Source of the DNA: a virus
IMG/VR virus record: IMGVR_UViG_3300040801_005901
Coordinates: 1-21,518 of that record
Length of the DNA stretch: 21,518 nt
Direction: 5' to 3' (one strand)
The notes beneath the pieces were generated by a model. That model saw nothing but the letters and a program-made list of their open reading frames with translations. It was not told the origin of the DNA and did no database searches. Shown piece by piece: positions 137-20,109 of this stretch. The position numbers and the translations under genes are program-made. Within the stretch, counting starts at the first letter, position 1; every line of letters starts with the position of its first letter.

Positions 137-439
137 TTACCAAAATTTTACTTTTTCCTCGAGTTGAGGCGCTAAACGCAAAAACTCTTCATAATTTGAA
201 ACAATCTCTTCACCTGGGCTTATTTCTTTTTTTGCAAACAAAATTATATCACCCTTTTTTGTTTTTTTCAAAAACGTATTACTCTGCGCCTTTCCATGGT
301 TCACGTAATTACTCTTCAAAGAAAAAGAACCTTCCCCCTCACGCCAAATAATCATAATTTGTTCCCCCTTCTTCAAAGTAGAAGAAGCAAAAGCACCAAC
401 GCCATGTATTTTTGATTTACCAATGTAAATAGCTGCCAT
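137..439 (-). CDS. Small SET-domain protein (putative protein-lysine methyltransferase)
   Basis: A 100-residue protein made of little more than a SET domain, the fold that moves a methyl group from S-adenosylmethionine to lysine side chains. Visible signatures in order: the N-terminal GVGAFA motif (residues 13-18), an NH pair with a following Asn (N47, H48, N54) matching the NHxxxPN cofactor-binding element, and the C-terminal GEE-x3-NY element (76-83) with the catalytic-type Tyr at 83. There is no post-SET cysteine cluster. It is near the size of the compact viral vSET protein (about 119 residues). It sits 3 bases after a small tail protein gene and 1 base before the next gene, so it is co-transcribed with fibre genes. 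The fold call is fairly strong; the substrate is unknown and could be a virion, host or chromatin-like protein. Confidence 0.8.
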   Translation of the reverse strand: MAAIYIGKSKIHGVGAFASSTLKKGEQIMIIWREGEGSFSLKSNYVNHGKAQSNTFLKKTKKGDIILFAKKEISPGEEIVSNYEEFLRLAPQLEEKVKFW

Positions 440-691: not shown

Positions 692-1471
692 TTAAAATTT
701 GAAGTCCAGTTCAAAATTGACTTGCGTAGTATCCGCATTGCTTTCATAAATGTTCATAAGCTCTGTTTGAACGCCATCAAACAAAGTGAAAGTAGAAGTT
801 CTTTTGGTGAACCCTGCCGTGACATCAAAATTGTTTTGATCAATTATAGCGGACAAATTGCCAAAAGCAGCAGGATAAACAAAATAATATCTTTCAAGAT
901 TTGGATTGAAAACAAGGTTATTCCTATCGCCTGGAGCCCAAATGTTCTTGTTCAAGTTTTTTATATCTGCTTCAACCAAGTTAGGAGCTCCAACACCATA
1001 ATAAGATGGCGCATAAAATCTTACAGTCTTGTTTATTACCAAAAGCCCTGCTTGATCAAAATTGGCTTCTAAGGTATAAGTTTTATCAGCCTCAACCCCT
1101 AAATCAGTATAAACAAAAGTATTGGTCTGCGGATTAACTAAAACAGTAGAACCTGTCTTCAAAAACACCTGCCTCAACCCGCCCGCCAAAACGAACGAAT
1201 CATCATTTGAATTTACAGCTCCATTGACATTTATATCGAACGCCTTTCCTTTCTCCCTTATGCCCAAATTTGAAAGATTTGCTGTTGCATCTATGAAAGG
1301 GTACAACAAACGCCTCAAAACTTCTTTAACTGGTTCCTCCAAAAAATCAGTTCCTGCTTCAATACCGCCAATCTTCAATGGTGTTGGCCTTGAGTCTGTA
1401 AACAAAAAGTTGGTATCCAACTCAATGTGGGTCAAAGGCGAACCCTTGTCAGTTCTTATTGTTGTGCTCAT
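692..1471 (-). CDS. Tail fibre / baseplate appendage protein
   Basis: A 259-residue protein. Its first 25 residues contain TDKGSPLTHIELDTNF, a form of the 'KGSPLTxxElDxNF' motif that often begins phage tail fibre and baseplate-attached proteins. Residues 30-75 (PLKIGGIEAGTDF, then LLYPFIDATANLS, then IREKG) form a second conserved-looking block. The rest is predicted to be beta-rich, with many Asn, Thr and aromatic residues and no enzyme motif. It lacks a signal peptide. The gene starts one base after the stop of the 131-residue gene. Placement just distal to the baseplate J gene fits a protein attached to the wedge periphery. It is short for a full receptor-binding fibre, so it may be the baseplate-proximal segment or a short fibre. 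Confidence 0.6.
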   Translation of the reverse strand: MSTTIRTDKGSPLTHIELDTNFLFTDSRPTPLKIGGIEAGTDFLEEPVKEVLRRLLYPFIDATANLSNLGIREKGKAFDINVNGAVNSNDDSFVLAGGLRQVFLKTGSTVLVNPQTNTFVYTDLGVEADKTYTLEANFDQAGLLVINKTVRFYAPSYYGVGAPNLVEADIKNLNKNIWAPGDRNNLVFNPNLERYYFVYPAAFGNLSAIIDQNNFDVTAGFTKRTSTFTLFDGVQTELMNIYESNADTTQVNFELDFKF

Positions 1472-1472
1472 A

Positions 1473-1868
1473 TCAAGGTGTTACGTAATCAGTTTGTTCC
1501 TCTACATAATCGCAAAAAACATAATCCCCACAGCCATCAATAGGCTCACAAGGATCATAAAGTAAAAACCCCGTATCAAAATCTATAAAATATCTTTCTG
1601 AATCGTCAGCTGTCACAACCAACTCACCATCTACATTAACATAGATATCTACTTCACTTGGAAGGTTTTCGGCCACGATATAAAGCTCCCCTTCAGAAAT
1701 ATCCACTTCATTCACCTGTATATTTTCTTGCGCTATACCAGCAACTACTATATAGGGCAAATCCGACACTTCCCCCTGACAATCAACCGACCCTACATAA
1801 GGATTGTCAATACGCAACCTCCTCACAGGCCTTTCAGTTAAAACAGTAAGGGTGTTTAAAATTTGCAT
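1473..1868 (-). CDS. Unknown acidic baseplate-region protein with Cys-rich C terminus
   Basis: A 131-residue, strongly acidic protein that I do not recognise. The middle (about 35-95) alternates hydrophobic and polar residues as in beta strands (for example EGELYIVAENL and DIYVNVDGELVV). The C-terminal 30 residues hold three closely spaced Cys (near 107, 112 and 118) in an acidic, aromatic context; a fourth Cys is near residue 30. These could bind a metal or form a disulfide, but no standard zinc motif is clear. The ATG overlaps the stop of the baseplate J gene by one base (TAATG), implying coupled translation. By position it is likely a baseplate or fibre adaptor protein. Confidence 0.5.
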   Translation of the reverse strand: MQILNTLTVLTERPVRRLRIDNPYVGSVDCQGEVSDLPYIVVAGIAQENIQVNEVDISEGELYIVAENLPSEVDIYVNVDGELVVTADDSERYFIDFDTGFLLYDPCEPIDGCGDYVFCDYVEEQTDYVTP

Positions 1869-3073
1869 TAAATGTAATTAACAACAGTGGTTTGAAAATT
1901 GAAATCAGCCCTTGTGGGGTAAAAAACAGGGTTTATTTCATTGTTTGCAGAAGAAATAATAGCTCCCGCCTTATCAAGCAACAAAAACCCCCTCACCCTC
2001 GGTACTTTGTTGTTTGGAACCCTTATATCCGTCCTTGGGAAAAACTTATCATCATAAACATAAGTGACACCGCTGACGCTTTTAGCTGCAAACAACAAAT
2101 CCTCCCATTCTATTCTTTCGCCCAATTTCCAATACCTATAATCTATAATTTTAGATATTGAAACTTGTATTTCTTTCCTTATAAGCTCAATATCTTGATC
2201 CTGGGCTATCTCAAGTCTCATACTAACATCAAATTCAAAAAACTCAACGCTCCTAAACTCAACGCCATTGTTTTGTACGCCAAACCAATCTGGAGCAAGG
2301 TCAGAAATAGAAAGATACTTGGCCGCAGAAGTATCAAGTTGCGCTATTTCGGCATTAGATAAATCCGTACCATCTTGCTTCAAAACGGCAATAATGGTTT
2401 TTCCCGTGCTTGACCTCCCCATATTAAAAATCCTCAATATGTCGGGATTGATAAGCATTAGTGCTTGCCGTAAATACTCCATCGTGTGTTTGGCAAGTAT
2501 ATTCACCCCGCCTCTTATACGATTTTTGAAATCTTCATCATTTTCTTCGTCCCTTCCCCCAAGCATGTAATACTCATTCGTCACGTATTGGTGGCCCGTC
2601 AACTGTTCACTTATTTCATTAACCGTGAAGGGTTCTACATTAGAAGCAAAACCATTTTGTTGGCTTTTTACCTTCACGTATTTGTACCCAATGTTGCCAA
2701 CAGTTTCGTCTTGCTCAAGCTCAAAAACAATACCGTGGTTCCCCGTAAAAGTGTGAACTGTTTTTTCATACAAGGTACCTGGCTCTGCTGCAATTCTCAA
2801 ATATCCAGAACTTGGCGAAGTAGAAAATCTCGGCGAAAACCCCCTGTCCCTTGCAATAAAATCAAGATATTCCCCATAAGCAAGATCAGGAAATATATGG
2901 GATTCAATAAGGGCTTGGTCCTTATTAACCTTTTGGCCAACTTTGGCAACTCCGTAAGCAATTCCATTTAAAACGCTCTCATCAGCAATTTTTGTAACTT
3001 TGTCTGTCCTCGCAAACAAGTTCTTTGCAAAAAATTCTTTGAATTTTTCAATGGTTTTTACCTTCGTTATCAT
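1868..3073 (-). CDS. Baseplate J-like wedge protein (T4 gp6-like)
   Basis: A 401-residue baseplate wedge component. In contractile tails the J/gp6 family forms the inner ring of the baseplate and links wedges around the hub. The family signature is the GGRDEENDEDFKNRI segment (172-186), the usual 'GG.d.EsdedfR.Ri' element in the centre of baseplate J proteins. It is preceded by a beta-rich part with GTLYEKTVHTFTG (99-111), matching the 'pGt...g..f.t' stretch, and followed by a helix-rich second half (YLRQAL, then IRKEIQVSISKII). The length is ordinary for the family. The start overlaps the preceding wedge gene by 4 bases. Neighbouring gp25-like and hub genes make this the standard baseplate order. 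Confidence 0.88.
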   Translation of the reverse strand: MITKVKTIEKFKEFFAKNLFARTDKVTKIADESVLNGIAYGVAKVGQKVNKDQALIESHIFPDLAYGEYLDFIARDRGFSPRFSTSPSSGYLRIAAEPGTLYEKTVHTFTGNHGIVFELEQDETVGNIGYKYVKVKSQQNGFASNVEPFTVNEISEQLTGHQYVTNEYYMLGGRDEENDEDFKNRIRGGVNILAKHTMEYLRQALMLINPDILRIFNMGRSSTGKTIIAVLKQDGTDLSNAEIAQLDTSAAKYLSISDLAPDWFGVQNNGVEFRSVEFFEFDVSMRLEIAQDQDIELIRKEIQVSISKIIDYRYWKLGERIEWEDLLFAAKSVSGVTYVYDDKFFPRTDIRVPNNKVPRVRGFLLLDKAGAIISSANNEINPVFYPTRADFNFQTTVVNYI

Positions 3074-4003: not shown

Positions 4004-4762
4004 TTACCTATTCAAAACATTATCAGCACGTCTTAAAGTCAAAGACTTTGTTTTGTTAAATAGCTCTGTAGCCCCGTCAGTCATAACTTTAGAAGTGGCA
4101 ATGCTAACAAGAGAGGTAAACTTATTCTTTTTACTCAACTCCCTCAAAGGCGCCAAAACCTTGAAATTTGCGTTATAATTCCACATGGAAGTACGCTGCA
4201 AATTTTGAGAAAAGCTAAAATTCTCTGGCTCTACAACCCATTGCGTGTTGAAAGCAAGGTTGTAAAAATACATCATCTTAGGTTGATTGAACTTGTCCAA
4301 GTGGTAAAAATCCCTCACCATTTTATCAAGCACCTTTGTAACCCCGTATCCAGTTTTTATGGAAGAACTAAATTCGTTAGAATTTGCCTCCTCACCAGAA
4401 AAAGACCCAAAACCAAACCCAGAAGCAAGCAAATTAGTAGAACCAACCAAAAATTTGAACCTCCTCCCAAAATTACCGCTCATCTTTATTTGCTTTGGAA
4501 TGAAAGTCGGGTTTGTTATTGAAACAACACCCGCACTTGTTTTTTTCACATTATTAGGTGAAGGATATGTTTCATTCAAATCTTCCGGCAAAATAGGAAA
4601 AACAAGCAGCTGAATAGTGCTATCCTCTGAATCAACAAGCTCTAAAGCTACTGAATAAAATTCAAATTCGTCTGGAAAAGTTGCATGTAAAGCTGACCTC
4701 GCTGTACCCAAAATAGCCTTTTGGGACTCCGAGAATAAAGTATCTGAAATGTTGAGTGCCAT
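4004..4762 (-). CDS. Baseplate protein, probable hub-tube adaptor / tube initiator
   Basis: A 252-residue protein. The N-terminal third has a pattern seen in phage baseplate and gpU/gp53-like proteins: FYSVALELVDS (35-45), then a hydrophobic strand ending in FPILPEDLNETYP (55-67), then KTSAGVVS (74-81), FIPKQI and SGNFGRRFKF (95-104). This 'F..lP..l....p......ts.Gv........P..i...G.FGR' layout is typical of proteins that join the tube to the hub. The C-terminal part is helical and basic. No enzymatic motif or membrane segment is visible. It follows the Gly-Thr repeat gene by 16 bases and precedes the wedge gene by 1 base. The exact equivalent (gp48, gp53, gp54 or XkdP-like) cannot be decided by eye. 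Confidence 0.5.
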   Translation of the reverse strand: MALNISDTLFSESQKAILGTARSALHATFPDEFEFYSVALELVDSEDSTIQLLVFPILPEDLNETYPSPNNVKKTSAGVVSITNPTFIPKQIKMSGNFGRRFKFLVGSTNLLASGFGFGSFSGEEANSNEFSSSIKTGYGVTKVLDKMVRDFYHLDKFNQPKMMYFYNLAFNTQWVVEPENFSFSQNLQRTSMWNYNANFKVLAPLRELSKKNKFTSLVSIATSKVMTDGATELFNKTKSLTLRRADNVLNR

Positions 4763-5020: not shown

Positions 5021-5941
5021 TTAATCAGTTTTTGTCTTTTTTGAAAGAATACTGCTCAATTTCGCTTTTATTGCAGTGAATTCCGCTATATTGATAGGTG
5101 TACCACTCGGCCCAACACCTGTCGGCACTGTCAGCTTTTCTATGGCGCTTATGAGCTTTTCAAGCTCACCCTTCAAGGTTTCCCCCAAAACCAAACTTTC
5201 CTTGCCGCTGCCAAACAAAATTTCATCCGCTTTCAATTGATAATTTTTCGTTTCAATACTTATTTCCCCGTCCTTTATAGTTATTACATTTTCAAATTCG
5301 TCCTTCATCGTAAAACCAACACCCTTTTGATACTTTATAGATGTTGTTTTTTCATCATCATCTTTGTTTCTCACTAAAATTTCAAATTCCTTTTGAGTTT
5401 CAAGGAGAACCTTTTTTTTAGCAAATAAATGCGCCAAATGAGTTGATGACACTTTCCAGGCCCCTTCTGCCCCTGAAACCCTAAACTCCATAAAACCACC
5501 TTCAGGGTTGTCTGAAGAAAATGACATATCACCTTCTTCACCGTCTAAAGAAATACAAACAGAACTTTCGCCCTTAGACTTTACTATTTCCCAATAATTT
5601 TCCCTCAAAACAGATATGTCTACTTCCTTTTGATTTTGCCTCAAAGTGCCAACAACAACTGGGTAATTTTCCTTGTGTAAAGTCAAAAACACAACCAAAG
5701 TACCAAGCTGAAACTCACCCGCCTTTTCAGGAAATTCCAACCTTTTCATTATGTCAGCATCAACTGGAACATGATGAAAAATCTCATTTTCAAAAGTTGT
5801 AAAAGAAACTGTATTAGTAGAATAGCAATAATTAACAAACGCCTCCCTCTCCACCCCTTTCGGCAAAAAGACATAAGCCAGCCCCGCACTGGGCTTAAAG
5901 CCAGGCACTTTCCTCAAACCTAAATCCTGCTTCCTACTCAT
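5021..5941 (-). CDS. Baseplate spike / central puncturing protein (gp5-like, no lysozyme)
   Basis: A 306-residue protein with the plan of a trimeric tail spike. The N-terminal part (about 15-105) is consistent with an OB-type domain: a strand-rich region ending in FQLGTLVVFLTL, then YPVVVGTLRQ, the usual 'G..v.v.f......pvvlG.l' of gpV/gp5. Residues 110-250 are short alternating strands (ISLDGEEGDMSFSS, KKVLLETQKEFEILV, VITIKDGEISIETKNYQLKA), as in a beta-helix. The C-terminal stretch (257-300) has KGELEKLISAIEKL, TVPTGVGPSGTPIN and AIKAKLSSILSKK, a segment shared by many spike and gp5-like proteins. No lysozyme or other catalytic motif is seen. The start overlaps the hub gene by 8 bases and the next gene follows after 2, so hub and spike are translationally linked. 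Confidence 0.8.
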   Translation of the reverse strand: MSRKQDLGLRKVPGFKPSAGLAYVFLPKGVEREAFVNYCYSTNTVSFTTFENEIFHHVPVDADIMKRLEFPEKAGEFQLGTLVVFLTLHKENYPVVVGTLRQNQKEVDISVLRENYWEIVKSKGESSVCISLDGEEGDMSFSSDNPEGGFMEFRVSGAEGAWKVSSTHLAHLFAKKKVLLETQKEFEILVRNKDDDEKTTSIKYQKGVGFTMKDEFENVITIKDGEISIETKNYQLKADEILFGSGKESLVLGETLKGELEKLISAIEKLTVPTGVGPSGTPINIAEFTAIKAKLSSILSKKTKTD

Positions 5942-8624
5942 TAAACTGTTCTCTTTTCAAAAGTTTGTTGTAAATATCATTGTTAAACCTGAAAACCTTA
6001 TCTACTTGATCTTTTTTCTGTTTCTTCCCTTCAGGTAAATAACTCAACTTCAAGGTTGTACGTCTATTTTTCGCCCTATTTTTTGGTGAATCATTGCCTT
6101 GCTTGTCCTTGTTAGGGAAGGCGGGCTTTGATTCACCAAACGAAATAGTTTGCACCTCCACGGGCAAATCAGGGTATTCCCTTACTACAAGGGATTTTAC
6201 CTTTTCTGCCCTTCTTTTACCAAGATTGATGTTATAGGTGTCAGAACCTATGGAATCAGTATGACCTTCAAGGACAAAATTAGTTATATTTTGCGGCCCA
6301 ACACGGTCTATTATCTTCTTTACGTCTTCAAAAACTTTCTCATTTTCCTCTTGCCTTGTACCGTCCAAAGTATCTTGATTGAAATCAAAAAAGAAAAACA
6401 AGTCCTCCTCTTCACTTTTTTCACTTTGCGGATCATCTACCTTTCTTGTAACCTCATCAAAATCAACAATATCAAAATACCAATCTATTTTAGACTCTAC
6501 CACCCCCCTGCTCACAGTAAGAACTGTTTTTTCATCATAAGTAGTTTCGCTCACCGTAAAAGTGTGGCTAACAGAATCTACAAAAAATACTTCCCCTGTC
6601 CCCTTATGCCTCACATTCATGCCCCTTTTTATCCTTCTATCGCGCCTTATTGTTATTTGCCCCTTTCTCGTGAAAGGCAAATAAACATTGCTTTCTATCA
6701 AATACCTCAAATCATCAAGAGCAAGTTCTTTCAAATAGTCAAATGTTTCATCTTCTTCCGCCGTTTGTTTGAACATATCAAAAAACCCAACGTAATTTGA
6801 CTGTTGGTCTAAAGGCCTGCTCCCCCATATTTGGGCTATTCTTTTGAAGAAAACGGCTGGAAAATCAAGTTGACTGTACTGCTGTGACAAACCATTATAA
6901 ATGCCCTGCGGATTGAGCCTATACCAACTATAAACTTGACTGTCGTCCCACCTCAAATTATCGCTGTAAATATCGCCTTCATCTATATCTACAACGTAGT
7001 TTGTTGTAAACCCTTCTTTATCGAAAGGCGGTTTTCTAACTATCAAATAATAAAAAGGACCAAAGGTTTGTCCATAAAATTCCACAAAGGGCTTTTGACA
7101 AACCTTATTGATAAAAGAAAGCAAACTTCCTTGATGAGTTGCTAAACCGCTGTCAGCAACCCTTCTGTCCTCTACTGACTCATCAATAACAAGTTTTACA
7201 ATCGACCAAACCCCACTTATATTTTCAAATTTGTCTTCATCTGTTATCCTTTTGCTTAACTCTTCCTCATTGTAGCTTCCAAAAACATCTTCGTGGCAAA
7301 TTTCTACATGGCTCAAATTGTTGATTACATACTGTACTATCGTCCTTATATCTAAATCTTGTGTGAGTTTGAAAACATTCAAAGACCTATCAGCAAGCAA
7401 CCTTTTTGAGGCCTCTCCAATCTCTGAAATATCCTGGTATTTGAAAAACTGCCTGCCATTCACGGCATACATTTCTTGATTGAAAAAATACTCACCGTCT
7501 TCTATGAACAACTTCATCAAATCGCGGCCTTTCACACTCACTGTTATATTTGATTTGTCGGCATAGCTAACAGAACAAGAATCTACCAAACCTATACAAT
7601 CCCAAAAAGTCTCAGGAATTACAGAAGCACCAAGCTCTTGAGGAACGGAAATGTGTTTATGCCTTTTATATTTTTCTGGCCTCAACTTTTTTGAAATCTT
7701 CCTCCTCAACTCGGTGTACTTATCCCTCAAACCGCTCTCATCCTTTCTTATCTCTTCTTCGTGCTTTGTTTCTTTTTTATGGTGTGGTTCGCTATGAATT
7801 TCTTGTTCATTATGTTCAAACTCAAGTTCTTCAAAAGCTATGAAAATAAGGTCATTCGATTGTATAATCTTTGTAAACAAATCTATATTACGCCTGTACT
7901 TGTTTTGTTTTGTGTAATTTCTCGAGCCTTCTATGAAACTTTCAGATTTTTGATAATCTTGTTCTTGATAGGCTATACCAGCAAAATGATGTAAAAAATC
8001 AATATGGCTTTGAGTCGCTTGATACCCATGTATGTGATTTGCCTTCCACTTTTCTAAAAACTTTGAATCAATAGGGGGCAGACTTATAGAAAAATTGGCC
8101 CCGTTTTCCCCCTCATTCAAGGTCAAATTCATTATGAAAGGTGTCAAATCGAAAAACCCCCCCTGCGGTACACCATCTGTAGCAGGGCCAAGGGACTTGC
8201 TCCAAAGCACTACGCTCAATCTACTATAAAGTTTATGTATGCTGCCAACCTTACTGTCAGCCACCTTATTCAAGGGCGCATAAGAATCGTTTAAAAGCAC
8301 CCTTTTCATTTTTTCGTCATAGAAGGTTGGCGCATTTAAATACTTTTCCCTATTATTTGAAAAAGTTGCTCTAAAAAGGGATTCTTTGTTTATTTTTTCA
8401 ATAGGTACAATAATCAAAGGAGAACCAATAAACAAGTTTTCTTCAGGTACGTCTTGTTCATCTGAATCAAAAGAAGCCCTTTGCTCCTCAATACGGGCTT
8501 TATTGCCCCTGTAATTGAGGAACTCTTCTTGCTCCATATTGATCTTATAGTACGCCAATAAATTCTTTATTGTCGTGCCTTGCCTTATTGGCTTTGGAAA
8601 ACTTTTTATCTTTATATCAGCCAT
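5934..8624 (-). CDS. Baseplate hub protein with C-terminal OmpA-like peptidoglycan-binding domain
   Basis: An 896-residue protein. Residues about 135-720 look like a large tail hub (gp27/gpD-like): WSKSLGPATDG...FFDLTPFIMNLTLNEG, later VSVKGRDLMKLF, and strand-rich segments near 650-710 ending in a FVDSVSHTFTVS element typical of hub proteins. Residues about 268-325 form a highly charged, His/Lys/Glu-rich insert. Residues about 741-863 are an OmpA C-terminal-like domain: EGHTDSIGSDTYN (786-798), LGKRRAEKV (801-809), SFGES (828-832) and NRR (853-855). D790 and R805 are 15 residues apart, as the diaminopimelate-binding Asp and Arg of bacterial OmpA are. Its start shares one base with the tape measure stop (TAATG), and its end overlaps the spike gene by 8 bases. 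The OmpA call is strong; the hub call rests on order and weaker motifs. Confidence 0.82.
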   Translation of the reverse strand: MADIKIKSFPKPIRQGTTIKNLLAYYKINMEQEEFLNYRGNKARIEEQRASFDSDEQDVPEENLFIGSPLIIVPIEKINKESLFRATFSNNREKYLNAPTFYDEKMKRVLLNDSYAPLNKVADSKVGSIHKLYSRLSVVLWSKSLGPATDGVPQGGFFDLTPFIMNLTLNEGENGANFSISLPPIDSKFLEKWKANHIHGYQATQSHIDFLHHFAGIAYQEQDYQKSESFIEGSRNYTKQNKYRRNIDLFTKIIQSNDLIFIAFEELEFEHNEQEIHSEPHHKKETKHEEEIRKDESGLRDKYTELRRKISKKLRPEKYKRHKHISVPQELGASVIPETFWDCIGLVDSCSVSYADKSNITVSVKGRDLMKLFIEDGEYFFNQEMYAVNGRQFFKYQDISEIGEASKRLLADRSLNVFKLTQDLDIRTIVQYVINNLSHVEICHEDVFGSYNEEELSKRITDEDKFENISGVWSIVKLVIDESVEDRRVADSGLATHQGSLLSFINKVCQKPFVEFYGQTFGPFYYLIVRKPPFDKEGFTTNYVVDIDEGDIYSDNLRWDDSQVYSWYRLNPQGIYNGLSQQYSQLDFPAVFFKRIAQIWGSRPLDQQSNYVGFFDMFKQTAEEDETFDYLKELALDDLRYLIESNVYLPFTRKGQITIRRDRRIKRGMNVRHKGTGEVFFVDSVSHTFTVSETTYDEKTVLTVSRGVVESKIDWYFDIVDFDEVTRKVDDPQSEKSEEEDLFFFFDFNQDTLDGTRQEENEKVFEDVKKIIDRVGPQNITNFVLEGHTDSIGSDTYNINLGKRRAEKVKSLVVREYPDLPVEVQTISFGESKPAFPNKDKQGNDSPKNRAKNRRTTLKLSYLPEGKKQKKDQVDKVFRFNNDIYNKLLKREQFNE

Positions 8625-11083
8625 TATTCTCCGTAAATAGCGTTCCCCTTGTTTAGCTCTTCGTTGGTTTTATCTGTGTTCTTTTCAATGCCTCTCAAGC
8701 TATTCAACACATCTTCACTCAACCTGAACTCTTCAGAGGTTTTGCCTTCTCGTTGTTTTTGTGTCAATTGAACTTCTTGTTGACGGCCCCTTGTACTTAC
8801 TTGCTCTACTTGCGGTTCAAGCTCTCCTTTTTCAAGGCCTTCTGCAATAACTTCTCTTTCCTCCCTTCTTCTTTTAGCTGCTTTTTGTATGCCTTCGACG
8901 GTTCCGTCTGAATCAGCAACGGAATTAGCATATTGCTCCATCACATTCTTCATAGGCTCGATGAAGTTAGTTATACCAGGAACAATAAGCTCCTCAACAT
9001 ACTGATCCATTATAGGGATCAACGCAGCGGACATACTACTCGTGACTTCAGGCATTTTATCGGCCATCTTTGGAATTATGTTCGTCCTTGCCATTTGAAA
9101 AAACTTGTCTGTCATTTCCAAAGTCATAGCTGTATATTCACTCACATACTCATCAACGGTTTCCGCACTTGCTAACGCTTCCATTCTTGCGCCGTACTCT
9201 TCATAAGCCTCTGCACCCCTGCTTACCTGCTTTTCACGACCTTCGGCAGCCATAGCAGAAACTCTGCTTACTCGCCCTTTGCTTGTGTCAATTTGGCCTC
9301 TTTTTGCGCTCACCTTTCCTTCAGGACCTACAACAAACCTTTCACCAAACTTGCTTATATCCCCACCGCCCCTAAAGAATTCTATCATCTCATCAATTGT
9401 ATTCACGTCCATTTTGTCGCCAAACGCAGAATACAAATTCATGAAAGCTGTGTCTTCAGAACCCTGATTAGTCATAGTTTTTATGACCCTTTGCATAGAC
9501 TCAAGCCCCTCTTGGCTGCTAAACATACCCTTTTTTCTTGTCCTTATGACGTCAGCAATTGAAGCTCCTGGCCCTAAAGTAGCTGAAACAGACCTATTCA
9601 TCAACGCATCAAAGTATTGATTTCCTCCTCCAACCCCCCTCAAACTTGAATCAAGTGCACCAGCAGCACCAGAAAAAGTTGTAGGATCTCCAAAAGCACC
9701 TCCTATTTTCATCAAACTTGACTGAACAGCCAACGCCCTGTCTGAATCAACCTTGTTTGTTGCCTGCAATTGCTTTTGCGCAATGTCATTGTTTATTTTC
9801 ATCAAGTTGGCGAGTTCAGTGTAATCACCCCCCTGCATGCCAAAATTCCTCCCTATTGTGCCAACTGTTTTAAAAACAATATCAGCCACATCACCGCCTG
9901 AACCAACGTCTCTACGGAAAGTCGAAGCCATATTGCCCAAAGCCCCTTGTTGCATACCTGTCGCACGCTCAACTTGCATATTCCTAAAAGCAAGGTCTTC
10001 GCCACCCAACTCATTAAACTTGTAACCAAAACTTCGCGCTTGATTAGCAGCATAGCCACTAAACTGTGCCCTGTCCATGCCGTACGAAAAAGCAGCGCGC
10101 CCCCCCAAGGTACTTGTCAAAGCCCTATTTTGATTGACAGTATCTGTTGCTTGTGCGTAAGCTGAAATTGATTTCGTTACCTCCTGGGTGTACGTGCTGA
10201 AATGTTGCGTAACACTCCCAACTGCTTGATTGAAAAGCCCAGAAACGGTTTCAACAGTAGCTTGACTTTCCTGATTGAAATAGCTTGCTATTTGAGTCCC
10301 AAAAGTACCACCCAAACCAGCACCAACAGCAGTCCCAACCCCTGGAACAAGAGAACCAATAATACCACCAATCAAAGAACCACCAATAGAACCAACCAAA
10401 GTGTTGGTCATATTTTGCATCATAGTTTCAGAAGTCAACTGCGCTGAAGCTCCTTGAACCATTTGTTGCATCATTTGCCCACTTGCTTGTCCAGCTCCCG
10501 AAATATACTCTGTAGGATTAACTGCATACCTCCCTCTATATTGAGCACCACTCAAAGAACCAGCAGCGCCAGCAAAAGACTGCGCTACCTTTCCTTCTTC
10601 CTTAATTTGCTCCGCGTTCAAAGAGCTAATCGTGCTCATAGATTGCTGAAGCATATGTTGAACACCAAAGGCCCCAACCATTTGCCCAATTCTACCACCC
10701 CCTGTTCTTCTTTCTCTTTCCCGTTGTTCCCTTTCTATTTCTTGCGTTTCCCTTTGCCTATGAACTTCTTGTTCCCGCCTTTCTTTTTGTCTTGCTTTCG
10801 AGCTTTGCTTCCTTTCATGGTGTACTTGGTCTTCAACGGCAGAACGTTCCCTTGCTTGTTTTTCCCTAAATTCCCTTTCTTCTTCCTGCCTTACCTTTTG
10901 CTTGTATTCTTTGTATCTTTTGTATTTTTCATCAAAACTTCTCGCTTCATTAGCCCCAGACTCAAAGGGGTCTGCTTCCGTTGAACCAGATTCAATTTCT
11001 TGCTTTTTCTTTTCTGCTTCGTCAAGAAAACGCTTAAAACCTGGATCAACCTCGGCCCTTATTTTGAAAAACAGTTCACGCAT
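8624..11083 (-). CDS. Tail tape measure protein
   Basis: An 819-residue protein that should run through the tail tube, set its length and leave at injection. It is the longest gene between the chaperone pair and the hub, as expected. Residues about 50-126 are almost purely charged (Glu, Arg, Lys, Gln) and predict a long coiled coil. Residues about 228-265 form a glycine-zipper-like hydrophobic stretch (GGSLIGGIIGS, then PGVGTAVGAGLGGTFG) that could enter a membrane. The remainder is rich in Ala, Gly, Gln, Met and Ser with helical character. If about 0.15 nm per residue applies, the tail would be near 120 nm; this is a rule-of-thumb estimate. The start overlaps the second chaperone frame by 8 bases. 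No peptidase or lytic transglycosylase motif is seen. Confidence 0.88.
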   Translation of the reverse strand: MRELFFKIRAEVDPGFKRFLDEAEKKKQEIESGSTEADPFESGANEARSFDEKYKRYKEYKQKVRQEEEREFREKQARERSAVEDQVHHERKQSSKARQKERREQEVHRQRETQEIEREQRERERRTGGGRIGQMVGAFGVQHMLQQSMSTISSLNAEQIKEEGKVAQSFAGAAGSLSGAQYRGRYAVNPTEYISGAGQASGQMMQQMVQGASAQLTSETMMQNMTNTLVGSIGGSLIGGIIGSLVPGVGTAVGAGLGGTFGTQIASYFNQESQATVETVSGLFNQAVGSVTQHFSTYTQEVTKSISAYAQATDTVNQNRALTSTLGGRAAFSYGMDRAQFSGYAANQARSFGYKFNELGGEDLAFRNMQVERATGMQQGALGNMASTFRRDVGSGGDVADIVFKTVGTIGRNFGMQGGDYTELANLMKINNDIAQKQLQATNKVDSDRALAVQSSLMKIGGAFGDPTTFSGAAGALDSSLRGVGGGNQYFDALMNRSVSATLGPGASIADVIRTRKKGMFSSQEGLESMQRVIKTMTNQGSEDTAFMNLYSAFGDKMDVNTIDEMIEFFRGGGDISKFGERFVVGPEGKVSAKRGQIDTSKGRVSRVSAMAAEGREKQVSRGAEAYEEYGARMEALASAETVDEYVSEYTAMTLEMTDKFFQMARTNIIPKMADKMPEVTSSMSAALIPIMDQYVEELIVPGITNFIEPMKNVMEQYANSVADSDGTVEGIQKAAKRRREEREVIAEGLEKGELEPQVEQVSTRGRQQEVQLTQKQREGKTSEEFRLSEDVLNSLRGIEKNTDKTNEELNKGNAIYGE

Positions 11084-12302: not shown

Positions 12303-12713
12303 TTAAGGTGTGGGCAAAACTTCGTTTTTCATCTCCCCTACGTCAATAAAATACAAATTGGGGAAGTTGTATTCTTTTGGTGCTGTCCCGGAAGCAAACC
12401 TTGCGTCTGGCAAAGAAGCAATAAGATTAAAGCCTAAAGAAGAGGCAGAAAAATTCAAAGAATCTTGCCTTGTAACTTCAACTTGTGCTATATGTTCATT
12501 TCCTGCCCCGCTTTTCACCTTTGCCACCCCATAGCCAGCTTGAGGCACCAAACTGTACTTAGAAATGGCAACTTCATCACCATTTTGGTTTTTTTGAGTT
12601 GCCCAAACCCGCAACTGCGTTGCAGTCGACAAATCAACAGCGTTGCCATTGCCGTCAATGACAGGCAACTCAATAATTCTTGCTTCTCCTTGTTGAAATC
12701 TGCTTGTAGACAT
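12303..12713 (-). CDS. Unknown virion-type protein, paralogue 1
   Basis: A 136-residue, predicted beta-rich protein that begins MSTSRFQQGEARIIELPV with GNAVDLSTATQLRVWA following, and ends GEMKNEVLPTP. It pairs end to end with the next gene, from which it differs mostly in the middle (35-90). The ATG overlaps the tube protein stop by one base (TAATG), so it should be made with the tube, probably at high level. A 12-base gap separates it from its paralogue. Because the duplication lies within the shaft block and before the terminator, both copies are likely virion parts needed in many copies. I do not recognise a named family; a BppU-N-like or Ig-like fold is the best structural guess. Confidence 0.6.
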   Translation of the reverse strand: MSTSRFQQGEARIIELPVIDGNGNAVDLSTATQLRVWATQKNQNGDEVAISKYSLVPQAGYGVAKVKSGAGNEHIAQVEVTRQDSLNFSASSLGFNLIASLPDARFASGTAPKEYNFPNLYFIDVGEMKNEVLPTP

Positions 12714-13225
12714 TATACGAAGAAAATTGGTGTTGTGTATTCAAATTCTTGATCATGGCCACTTACTTGGCCGTCGCTTATATCAAAGCTCTCCCTCGTC
12801 ATGAAACAGCCCCTTACCTTTGCAAAAGTTTCAAAAACTCTTTCAATAGCAACAGAACCATCCCTCGGCGTAGAATCAGCCACTTTCTTCAAAATGTTGA
12901 CTGTTACGCCATCTTCTTGGAGCAAAATGGTGTTAGTCCACTCTTCAACGCTGTCTGTTTTACGAAACACCGCATTTTTGATATGGCCTTCAGTACGGCC
13001 TGTCAAGGGATCAGCTTGATTTTCATTAAACTGCACAGAAAAGAAACTGCAAGTCATAGTCCCCTGCCAACTAACAGCAGGAATTTCGTCCATAACGAGC
13101 TGTCCAATGCCTTTGATGGCAGTCCTTTGTATAGATTCTGACACCCTCAAATTTTTCGCTTTCCCTATGGGGGTGCCATCCTCCATTTGTAAAGTTGCAA
13201 GCGGTGCTGTTAAAGTCCTTTTCAT
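12713..13225 (-). CDS. Tail tube protein
   Basis: A 170-residue protein with features of the tube family (T4 gp19, XkdM, FII type), which stacks as hexamer rings inside the sheath. Visible: an early APLATLQMEDGTPIGKAKNLRVSE segment, then RTAIKGIGQLVMDEIPAVSWQGTMT (33-57), where the 'i.G.G.......p....w.gt......' pattern is typical. Near the end is ESFDISDGQVSGHDQEFEYTTPIFFV, the closing strands. Length matches tube proteins (about 140-190). It lies two genes after the sheath, the standard order, with a 6-base gap from the 114-residue gene. The start follows an AATAAAAAATT stretch without Shine-Dalgarno. Confidence 0.75.
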   Translation of the reverse strand: MKRTLTAPLATLQMEDGTPIGKAKNLRVSESIQRTAIKGIGQLVMDEIPAVSWQGTMTCSFFSVQFNENQADPLTGRTEGHIKNAVFRKTDSVEEWTNTILLQEDGVTVNILKKVADSTPRDGSVAIERVFETFAKVRGCFMTRESFDISDGQVSGHDQEFEYTTPIFFV

Positions 13226-13586: not shown

Positions 13587-15533
13587 TTAATTGTTAACGC
13601 TTGTGTCCAATATAACTCCAGTAAAGAATAACTTGTTTATCGGGCCGTTGGGTTCATAACCGTATTCTATAAACAAATTGTCCTCCCTTCTTTTGACTGA
13701 AACTTGTGTGAAACTTATTATCAGGCCGTCCTGGCTACTTGTAGCCGTTCTGAACCCTAAATAATTCGCAACAAAATTTTTCACTGTTTCAGTACTTGTT
13801 TGCGCCCTGTTAGAGCCAACAAGATTTTGCCTCCTACTATTCAAAATAAGCTCCTTGTTCAACTGCGCCCCTATCCTCATAATAGTATGCTCAAAGCTCG
13901 TTCCAGTAGGATCATAAAGCTGAGAATTCTTTTGCATAGTATTGATCGCTTGGTTTATAGCAAAACCAATGTTTTCAATATACTTGAAATGAAAAACCCC
14001 CTTCCTCAAAGCCTTTTCGCGCTCTTTTTTATTTAACTCATGATTGACTCCGTCAATACCAACTGACTTCCAAGTCCCAGGAACTTGAGGCTGCAAACCT
14101 GCCAGCCTACCAACAGCAACAGCAGCACTGTACAAGGGGGACAAATTCCTTTGCGCTCCCCCACGTAAATTTTCAGAAATACCAGAATGAACAACGTGAA
14201 CATAAGGGCTGTCAAAAAACTCCGCTATTGCTACGGAACTATCAGTCCCTGCATCAAACTTTGTTGAATCCTCACCACCCCCTATAAATAAAAAGCGCTT
14301 GAACTCGGCATCATCTATGATATGCTGCAAGAGCTTTGTATTTTTAACATCAGTAGCATCAGCCCCAAACAAATCTGTCACAACATAGGTGAAGTCTACG
14401 CCCTCCGCTATATTTTCAAGAACATCATCAAAATCAGAAGGGTTAAAAGTGTCAGTCCCCCCTGTTGCAAGTATGTTATTAGGATAATCATCCAACAAAG
14501 TTGGGTAAGCAACACCCCTGAAAGGGCTGTAGGAGGCCCCGTTATAAATATCAAATTCTTTCAAATAAAAGTTTTGATTGAAATCAAAACTCCCCCTCAA
14601 ATCCCTTTCAAGGTCAAAAAAACTTCTGAACTCTTCAGAAGTAAAAACAACATTGAAACCGTCATCAAAAAGCTCTTGTGTTGTTTGTCCTGTGTAAGTT
14701 ACACTCTCGCCTGGCCTGACGCCACTTAACTTTCCCTCTAATATCTCAAAAATAAAAGCATTGGGGTTGTCAACGCCCGCTTTCAACCTCAAGGCATAAC
14801 CTCTGTAAAGATTGCCAAAAAAGTCAAGGCCGTTTGCCCATGAACCTTCTATACGTGGTTGTATAACAATATTGGCCCCATAGGTACGAGTGGTTGTTTG
14901 TTCTACAATTTCTACAAGAAAACCAGCCCCATCGTCAGGCAAACCTTCAACTTCGTAAATTCCAGAAATCGAATCATCATATAAACCGTCAGAAGTTACA
15001 GTTATAGAATCAACAACCCCTCCGTTCACAGTCAAACTCAAAAACCCCCCTGACAACTTCCTTGCAGGAGAAGGAGGCAAAATTTCAACTGAATAAGTAC
15101 CGTCTGTGTAACCAGAACCTGCGTTTGAAATAGTGGCTGTGTCGATAGAATACAAGGTCAAATCCTCTCCTCCATGGTCAAAAGCCATAGTTGCTGCCGT
15201 GGTTGTTGCTGCCTTCACATAGAAGAGCCTTTCAGTTCCGTCTATCCCCACATCAGGATTAAAAAGGAACCTCGCTAAATCGTAAATTTGGCCCCCTTTA
15301 ACAAAATGCCTGAATTCACTCAAATCAGTGAAAGACCTTATAGATTTTGCCCCCTGCGAAAGCTCACCGTTTATACCAACAGCGCCAAAATTTTGTTCAA
15401 CGTTGCCCGTGTCTATCACCAAAACATTTCCGGAAGTGGCAGTAGTCGGCTGCACCGGAACACCGCTCGTTTGCCTTGCGTATGCTCCTGGTTCTATGAT
15501 TTTTTTTCCATCAAAATTAACAGTGGTCGCCAT
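13587..15533 (-). CDS. Contractile tail sheath protein
   Basis: A 648-residue sheath subunit, the part that shortens to drive the tube through the envelope. N-terminal: a strand bearing IIEPGAYARQTSGVPVQP (12-29) followed by SGNVLVIDTG (34-43), the common sheath start. Residues 70-110 (FTDLSEFRHFV, then LFYVKAATTTAA) and 215-330 (GSWANGLDFFGNLY, then LKAG and DLERDLRGS) fit the sheath core. C-terminal: HTIMRIGAQLNKEL, NYLGFRTATSSQDGLIISF and a closing NKLFFTGVILDTSV strand, the conserved domain that wraps the tube. Residues about 126-218 carry an insert with GSGYTDGTYSV, a repeat type seen in phage fibres and decorations. It is 3 bases after the 82-residue gene. Confidence 0.9.
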   Translation of the reverse strand: MATTVNFDGKKIIEPGAYARQTSGVPVQPTTATSGNVLVIDTGNVEQNFGAVGINGELSQGAKSIRSFTDLSEFRHFVKGGQIYDLARFLFNPDVGIDGTERLFYVKAATTTAATMAFDHGGEDLTLYSIDTATISNAGSGYTDGTYSVEILPPSPARKLSGGFLSLTVNGGVVDSITVTSDGLYDDSISGIYEVEGLPDDGAGFLVEIVEQTTTRTYGANIVIQPRIEGSWANGLDFFGNLYRGYALRLKAGVDNPNAFIFEILEGKLSGVRPGESVTYTGQTTQELFDDGFNVVFTSEEFRSFFDLERDLRGSFDFNQNFYLKEFDIYNGASYSPFRGVAYPTLLDDYPNNILATGGTDTFNPSDFDDVLENIAEGVDFTYVVTDLFGADATDVKNTKLLQHIIDDAEFKRFLFIGGGEDSTKFDAGTDSSVAIAEFFDSPYVHVVHSGISENLRGGAQRNLSPLYSAAVAVGRLAGLQPQVPGTWKSVGIDGVNHELNKKEREKALRKGVFHFKYIENIGFAINQAINTMQKNSQLYDPTGTSFEHTIMRIGAQLNKELILNSRRQNLVGSNRAQTSTETVKNFVANYLGFRTATSSQDGLIISFTQVSVKRREDNLFIEYGYEPNGPINKLFFTGVILDTSVNN

Positions 15534-19281: not shown

Positions 19282-20109
19282 TCAGTTTTTCATCATTTCA
19301 TAGCTCTTTTTGGCTAAATATCCCGCAAGTATCGTGCCGTTTTTAGCTGTGCCCGTCAAAACCAACAAATCTTTGTCCATTGACTTCACAAAATCAACAT
19401 CTCCACTTTTCAAATAGGGCCTGCAACCTTCCAAAACATCAACAATGTGCTTTTCCTTGAAACCAAAGTCAAAAAATTGGTCGTAAAGCCTTTGCTTGTT
19501 TTTTTCAACCATTTTCACAGAAGACTTTTTTTCTGGAAAAAAGTTGATAGAAGTTCCGTTAGCAAAATAAAAAAGCTCATTGTCCATTTCAAAACCAACT
19601 ATTTGTTTGTAAGGCATCCAGGCTTTGTAAATGTTTTCAGACAAAACCTTTTTTGAGTGAAAAACCATACCCCACTTTGGCGTAACATGAAGGGGCGGGT
19701 AATTTGACTTTTTCAACAAATCATCCACAACATGACCACAAGCTAAAACAACCTTGTCTGCCTCAAATTCCCCCTCTTTGGTCATTATTTTGTTGTTTGA
19801 AACAGCTTGAACTCGTTCTTCAAGAACTTCCACCCCCCCTATGATTCTTTCAGGAGGGCAATAATCAAATTCCTTACCCCCTAATTCTTTTTTTGTGATA
19901 GTTGCAAAATTCGAAAGCACCTCAAGACCTTCTTCAGCCATGGGTGCTATCGTTTTGTTGATAAAAGAAGAATTATAAATGCCAGCAGAGCACTTACTTG
20001 CAGCGTAAGGCGTCTTCACATCGAACAAAAAGCATTCAGCCCCTTGAGCTTCATAATACCTTTTGCACATTGAACCTATTATGCCACCGCCAACAACTAT
20101 TATTCTCAT
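19282..20109 (-). CDS. FAD-dependent oxidoreductase, DAO family
   Basis: A 275-residue enzyme-like protein. The N terminus is a Rossmann dinucleotide fold: VVGGGIIG (5-12) gives GxGxxG at G7, G9, G12, with the acidic D30 at the end of the second strand to bind the FAD ribose. AASKCSAGIYN (36-46) matches the 'aS..naG.l' element that contacts the flavin in DAO proteins. KVVLACG (119-125) is the second FAD motif. GCRPYLKSGDVDFV (228-241) and LVLTGTAKNGTILAG (249-263) match the C-terminal 'G.RP...D' and 'GH...G' parts. DAO enzymes oxidise amines, amino acids or glycerol-phosphate; at 275 residues this one is shorter than usual (about 370-400), so the substrate-binding domain is reduced. It lies between two head genes with 11- and 4-base gaps. 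The substrate is unknown. Confidence 0.82.
   Translation of the reverse strand: MRIIVVGGGIIGSMCKRYYEAQGAECFLFDVKTPYAASKCSAGIYNSSFINKTIAPMAEEGLEVLSNFATITKKELGGKEFDYCPPERIIGGVEVLEERVQAVSNNKIMTKEGEFEADKVVLACGHVVDDLLKKSNYPPLHVTPKWGMVFHSKKVLSENIYKAWMPYKQIVGFEMDNELFYFANGTSINFFPEKKSSVKMVEKNKQRLYDQFFDFGFKEKHIVDVLEGCRPYLKSGDVDFVKSMDKDLLVLTGTAKNGTILAGYLAKKSYEMMKN

Follow-up and report, generated by a model that had tools for sequence, protein, structure and literature searches.

Tail module and hub gene

The window (the whole stretch of DNA analysed, 21,518 nt, positions 1 to 21,518 of IMG/VR virus record IMGVR_UViG_3300040801_005901) carries a contractile tail module in which the sheath and probable tube are followed by a probable tape measure, the hub, a probable spike and baseplate J. 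The features of the module are as follows.

1868..3073, minus strand: baseplate J-like wedge protein (PF04865, E 2.7e-11; phrog_6, E 3.9e-25)
4004..4762, minus strand: probable tail tube initiator / hub 1 (PF23980, E 0.0036, below the cut-off; homologue in the related contig L094, E 5e-6)
5021..5941, minus strand: probable central spike, 306 aa, its start overlapping the hub end by 8 nt (from position and a layout like that of the MA9V-3 and SJC03 loci)
5934..8624, minus strand: tail (baseplate) hub protein with OmpA insertion, 896 aa (ORF; model match to solved hubs; tblastn)
5946..6002, minus strand: hub C-terminal helix motif, residues 875-893, following the OmpA domain and kept in nearly all relatives
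6036..6404, minus strand: OmpA-type peptidoglycan-binding domain, hub residues 741-863 (PF00691; PDB relatives OprF, OmpA, YfiB and Pal)
6210..6212, minus strand: codon of R805, second residue of the diaminopimelate (DAP)-binding pair, invariant in 11 hub-borne OmpA domains
6255..6257, minus strand: codon of D790, first residue of the pair, likewise invariant in the 11 domains
6474..8273, minus strand: hub core, residues 118-717 (span aligned to solved hubs)
8624..11083, minus strand: probable tape measure protein, 819 aa (from position before the hub, length and a glycine-zipper match)
12713..13225, minus strand: probable tail tube protein (phrog_985, E 5e-4, and position)
13587..15533, minus strand: tail sheath protein (phrog_279, E 2.3e-20)

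The hub gene lies between the probable tape measure and the probable spike. The structure of its product, predicted from a 39-row alignment (mean pLDDT 69.8, pTM 0.65), matches the phi812 hub (Z 24.1, 3.4 Å, 381 residues) and also Mu gp44 (Z 17.4), T4 gp27 (Z 16.6) and VgrG (Z 15-16), in each case over residues ~118-725. On this model, assignment of the 896-residue protein as a baseplate hub of the gp27/VgrG/Mu gp44 type is sound. The hub also matches phrog_1015 (tail-associated lysin type, E 7.8e-9), which establishes homology of the core, and SPO1-like records by tblastn (E 2e-8). The NlpC/P60 catalytic domain of tail-associated lysins was looked for across the window contig and was not found. 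The modelled hub core ends near residue 708-726 and is followed by a low-confidence linker and then by the OmpA domain.

The OmpA domain of the hub

Residues 745-844 of the hub match PF00691 (Pfam-A, E 2.5e-11, 44.2 bits; the curated cut-off is 27.2 bits), and this is the sole PF00691 match within the window contig. The closest solved structure by sequence is the peptidoglycan-binding domain of OprF (5u1h, E 2.6e-12). D790 aligns with the Asp of its HTD motif and R805 with the Arg of ERRA, and the profile columns of both residues also align with the OmpA domain of A. baumannii (3td3). Asp271 and Arg286 of A. baumannii OmpA bind DAP (PMC5974059), and the window domain has Asp and Arg at the aligned positions, 15 residues apart. 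This bears out the first-pass annotation, which had recognised the spacing of a DAP-binding pair in an OmpA domain fused to the tail hub. The fusion itself is a single uninterrupted 896-codon frame with a matched hub fold.

The same annotation had put the domain at the end of the hub. The domain holds up, whereas its terminal position does not: about 35 residues, including the conserved end motif, lie C-terminal of it. By sequence, the OmpA domain interrupts the hub between its core and this motif and is not a terminal add-on. Modelled within the full hub, the OmpA region is only of moderate confidence, with pLDDT block means of about 48-79 over residues 751-820 and lower values beyond; low-confidence linkers lie at both borders (727-756 and 862-875).

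A variable slot in related hubs

Among deposited phages the hub has only a handful of relatives, namely Chryseobacterium phage MA9V-3, Bacteroides phages SJC03 and DAC16-23, a faecal phage contig without annotation and, more distantly, SPO1-like phages. In MA9V-3 and the SJC03-type relatives a homologous protein occupies the same gene position (tblastn). A search for related loci with the window protein as single query gave no matches, and a two-row OmpA alignment used as query produced poor patterns and recovered L094 alone. Many more relatives came from alignment-based scans, of which two covered viral contigs and one covered genome contigs. Three of the hub relatives come from Bacteroidota genomes or MAGs, and the deposited ones infect Bacteroides and Chryseobacterium. 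Bacteroidota walls are mostly of the DAP type.

Nearly all relatives end in a motif with the consensus VNxxVFxFFLxRxQF (window version FNNDIYNKLLKREQF), whatever precedes it. The aligned relatives show the stretch between hub core and end motif to behave as an interchangeable slot. Among 76 hubs with a readable C-terminal part, the slot is empty in 49 (that is, holds nothing recognisable), peptidoglycan hydrolase-like in 16 and OmpA-type in 11 (the window and ten relatives). The hydrolases include GH24 lysozyme (L012, L069), M23 plus GH24 (L083), SLT_3 (L019), NlpC/P60 (L021, L024, L006, L007) and M15 (L040, L043, L057), along with a transglycosylase-like domain in MA9V-3; the label of L029 was given by eye without a Pfam match, and those of L058 and L059 are weak. 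Since 49 of the 76 relatives have no domain there, a domain in the slot is dispensable for the hub family. The wall-cutting function of the slot has experimental support, because the Deep-Blue Gp189 and Vp4 Gp110 hubs, with C-terminal NlpC/P60 domains, lyse Bacillus cells (PMC11406892).

OmpA domains in related hubs

The first-pass annotation had proposed a survey for hub-OmpA fusions in other phages; ten further cases were found in viral or genome contigs, and the idea of a fusion unique to the window phage is rejected. The domain exceeds the PF00691 cut-off in the window, L018, L094 and L095, reaches it in L081 only with its in-frame neighbours, and stays below it in L068. The domains of L074, L077, L082, L085 and L086 are divergent, with low Pfam scores, and are still alignable. 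When 75 related records were searched for PF00691, 5 had OmpA, in every case inside the hub reading frame and at no other place in the record. The L081 domain, modelled alone (pLDDT 78.5), has as its top structural match A. baumannii OmpA with DAP pentapeptide (3td5, Z 12.5, 2.9 Å, 114 residues), with further matches to TagL, Pal and other OmpA domains.

None of the 11 hub-borne OmpA domains departs from D790 or R805, although their identity to the window domain is only 16-31%. Also invariant are G787, L801, A806 and R854. If 7 of ~117 columns are invariant, the probability that both named columns fall among them is about 0.003, a guide figure given that the motif anchors the alignment; because of this anchoring, the invariance is partly a selection effect. 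The spacing of the pair is 14 in the divergent group, versus 15 in the window.

Gain or loss of the domain

On a hub-core tree the OmpA label requires six changes, at least three of them forced by well-supported branches. The tree is from a quick search with long branches for L095 and some others, and on it gain and loss are indistinguishable. L094 pairs with an empty-slot hub (support 98), and L079 groups with the split hubs that carry OmpA (see below) yet has no OmpA domain. The six label changes point to repeated gain or loss, and the domain likely entered the slot more than once, as far as the tree of core sequences can tell.

Partner hydrolases and split hubs

A recognised hydrolase occurs elsewhere in the hub in 8 of the 10 other OmpA hubs. 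The second hub ORF starts with an M23 peptidase in L018 (E 6e-22) and with an M15/VanY peptidase in L068, L074, L077, L081, L082, L085 and L086. The N-terminus of L095 shows a weak match to SLT (E 0.018), and no hydrolase was recognised by Pfam in the L094 hub or the other L094 tail genes scanned. The hub family has insertion points besides the C-terminal slot. In the window, Pfam recognised no hydrolase in the hub, the probable spike of 306 aa, the probable tape measure of 819 aa or any further gene that was scanned, in agreement with the first-pass annotation, which had seen no lysozyme on hub or spike. Because the window is a partial contig, the hydrolase may be encoded elsewhere. The annotation's further suggestion, that the domain positions a separate enzyme, fits the eight relatives with both OmpA and hydrolase in the hub and has no such partner in the window.

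Two adjacent ORFs together encode the hub in L018 (6390-10147), L032 (7160-10141), L036 (9776-12573), L038 (9497-12449), L068, L074, L077, L079, L081, L082, L085 and L086. The split point is common to these hubs (about residues 451-470 of the window hub), and in other relatives some 100-300 residues are inserted there. In L098 (8662-11012) the hub is made up of three overlapping ORFs, reflecting either real splitting or sequencing errors.

OmpA domains elsewhere in viral contigs

A motif search of viral contigs, which among the matches listed returned mostly stand-alone OmpA or Pal-like genes, identified L172 (63.7 kb). Its 769-aa protein (736-3045) is homologous to the T4-type gp5 spike of jumbo phages and carries an OmpA domain at residues 514-603 (E 2.3e-20) with a VanY/M15-like stretch behind it (E 0.006, below the cut-off). 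The next gene is gp25-like, as identified by eye. Tail-tip OmpA therefore emerged in a second, unrelated lineage of tails as well, again next to what is probably a wall peptidase.

We searched 50,697 phage records by tblastn with the window domain, the L094 and L081 hubs and the L172 domain, and found no hub- or spike-borne OmpA among the matches placed. The placed matches, a minority of the OmpA-matching records, several of which are unannotated, are annotated host-type genes (e.g., yiaD, pal, yfiB and ompA). Two candidates were rejected: LR756500 has a membrane-anchored OmpA protein, and in ON470592 the match is a YfiB gene that neighbours the integrase of a prophage.

Other OmpA-domain proteins were seen in passing. 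L184 has a C-terminal part similar to that of the L172 spike. L131 encodes a 425-aa protein (5241-6518), which may be of tail fibre type and has OmpA in its second half (PF00691, E 7.5e-14). Short OmpA-domain proteins with one N-terminal membrane segment are encoded in the viral contigs L177 (6674-7174) and L179 (3716-4243).

Proposed role of the hub-borne domain

We consider it fairly probable that the OmpA domain is a non-catalytic cell-wall anchor in the hub of a contractile tail, acting through DAP-type peptidoglycan. A role at the cell wall is well grounded, because a genuine hub carries an OmpA domain, the DAP pair is present in 11 of 11 such domains and the slot holds hydrolases in relatives. 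Since related phages have wall-cutting enzymes in that position, the tail probably grips the wall during infection. Binding of the window domain to peptidoglycan is inferred, as are trimeric display, timing and anchoring as the benefit. The baseplate and spike would cross the outer membrane first. By analogy with solved hubs, each hub subunit would then contribute one OmpA domain, giving three around the tube tip, where D790 and R805 would contact the DAP stem peptides of peptidoglycan. This would keep the tip in place at the wall for as long as wall opening by a hydrolase and DNA passage require. In the eight relatives this hydrolase is recognised within the same hub polypeptide(s); in the window phage it is elsewhere, unrecognised or absent. 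The first-pass annotation had proposed that the tail holds or senses peptidoglycan in this way, and this is partly supported: the hub, the OmpA domain, the conserved pair and the hydrolase slot speak for a role at the wall. Its picture of a terminal fusion gives way to an insertion before the hub end, the fusion recurs in other phages, and the window shows no partner hydrolase.

The main rival to anchoring is that wall peptides in the OmpA pocket signal arrival, upon which the spike detaches or the tape measure leaves, with no need for a virion hydrolase. The lack of a recognised hydrolase in the scanned tail genes of the window and L094 is consistent with this, as is the placement of the domain after the hub core and towards the spike, the product of the next gene. 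There is also a precedent in phiCD508, which is contractile and has no virion hydrolase at all (PMC11948020). We nevertheless regard such signalling as unlikely: the pairing of OmpA and hydrolase in the hubs of relatives fits anchoring or enzyme targeting, and the sequences give no evidence for signalling. Its strongest form, in which wall recognition has replaced the enzymatic hub module, bound peptidoglycan gates DNA release and the window phage has no virion hydrolase, seems to us quite unlikely. A purely structural use, in which the OmpA fold is reused for baseplate packing or for holding the spike, with no ligand, is also quite unlikely. Reuse of folds as baseplate scaffold is common, and the shortening of the D-R spacing by one residue and the low Pfam scores in the divergent group would suit it. 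However, the ligand Asp and Arg are invariant in 11 of 11 domains while most other positions have changed, and it is this retention of the pair that makes a purely structural role less likely. The slot otherwise houses wall enzymes, and the low-confidence linkers in the model (727-756 and 862-875) suggest a domain that hangs freely.

The remaining explanation, an assembly or sequencing artefact or a host OmpA fragment captured by chance joining, draws on the linear metagenomic nature of the record and on the abundance of OmpA genes in bacteria. It is extremely improbable. The 896-codon frame is continuous and the conserved hub motif follows in frame downstream of the OmpA domain; ten relatives on independent contigs share the layout; and G+C and third-position G+C of the domain (0.39/0.38) are taken as equal to those of the hub core (0.37/0.37). 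The joining of two genes by sequencing error, which the first-pass annotation had named as one of two findings that would overturn its reading, is contradicted by the same in-frame end motif, independent relatives and homogeneous G+C.

Relation to known systems

OmpA wall anchors in bacteria, including TagL of the type VI secretion system (T6SS), and wall hydrolases on hubs and spikes are already known. In the literature searched (subscription papers lay outside its coverage) no account of an OmpA domain borne by a phage hub or spike turned up; the OmpA-like mention in a Leptospira paper (PMC8705779) is unrelated and was rejected as a precedent. The hub-lysins of SPO1 and other Herelleviridae (phrog_1015; Deep-Blue Gp189, Vp4 Gp110) share with the window a homologous hub core followed by a cell-wall-acting domain. 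Theirs is an NlpC/P60 hydrolase, whereas the window hub has a non-catalytic OmpA domain and an extra conserved end helix. The hubs of MA9V-3 (XQU63079.1) and SJC03/DAC16 belong to the window's hub family (about 32-36% identity) and share its gene order, but their slots hold a transglycosylase-like domain and no recognised domain, respectively, in place of OmpA. T4 gp5 and LysM-bearing baseplate proteins place wall-acting modules at the tail tip. These are lysozyme or LysM rather than OmpA, although the gp5-like L172 spike does carry OmpA.

The window domain has the HTD...RA motif and the DAP-binding Asp/Arg pair of the C-terminal domains of OmpA, Pal, OprF and MotB (PF00691), and probably their fold. 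Unlike those bacterial envelope proteins, it lies inside a virion hub. In the T6SS (TssL/TagL) an OmpA domain serves a contractile injection machine at the wall, as is proposed for the window hub, but TagL anchors the membrane complex of the donor cell, whereas the phage domain is carried by the hub entering the target. A hub-borne OmpA domain connects phage tails with the wall anchors of bacterial T6SS and flagellar motors, which are likewise built on OmpA. The behaviour of the tail tip in the periplasm, from outer-membrane passage to DNA delivery, is poorly known, and the wall modules described for tails are mostly enzymes. With hub slots that are empty, enzymatic or wall-binding, a role in wall recognition is directly testable by comparison of close relatives.

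Other genes of the window

At the end of the tail module is a gene for a small SET-domain protein (137-439, minus strand; PF00856, E 2.5e-7). An FAD-dependent oxidoreductase-like gene (19282-20109, minus strand; PF01266, E 1.2e-13) lies between structural genes.
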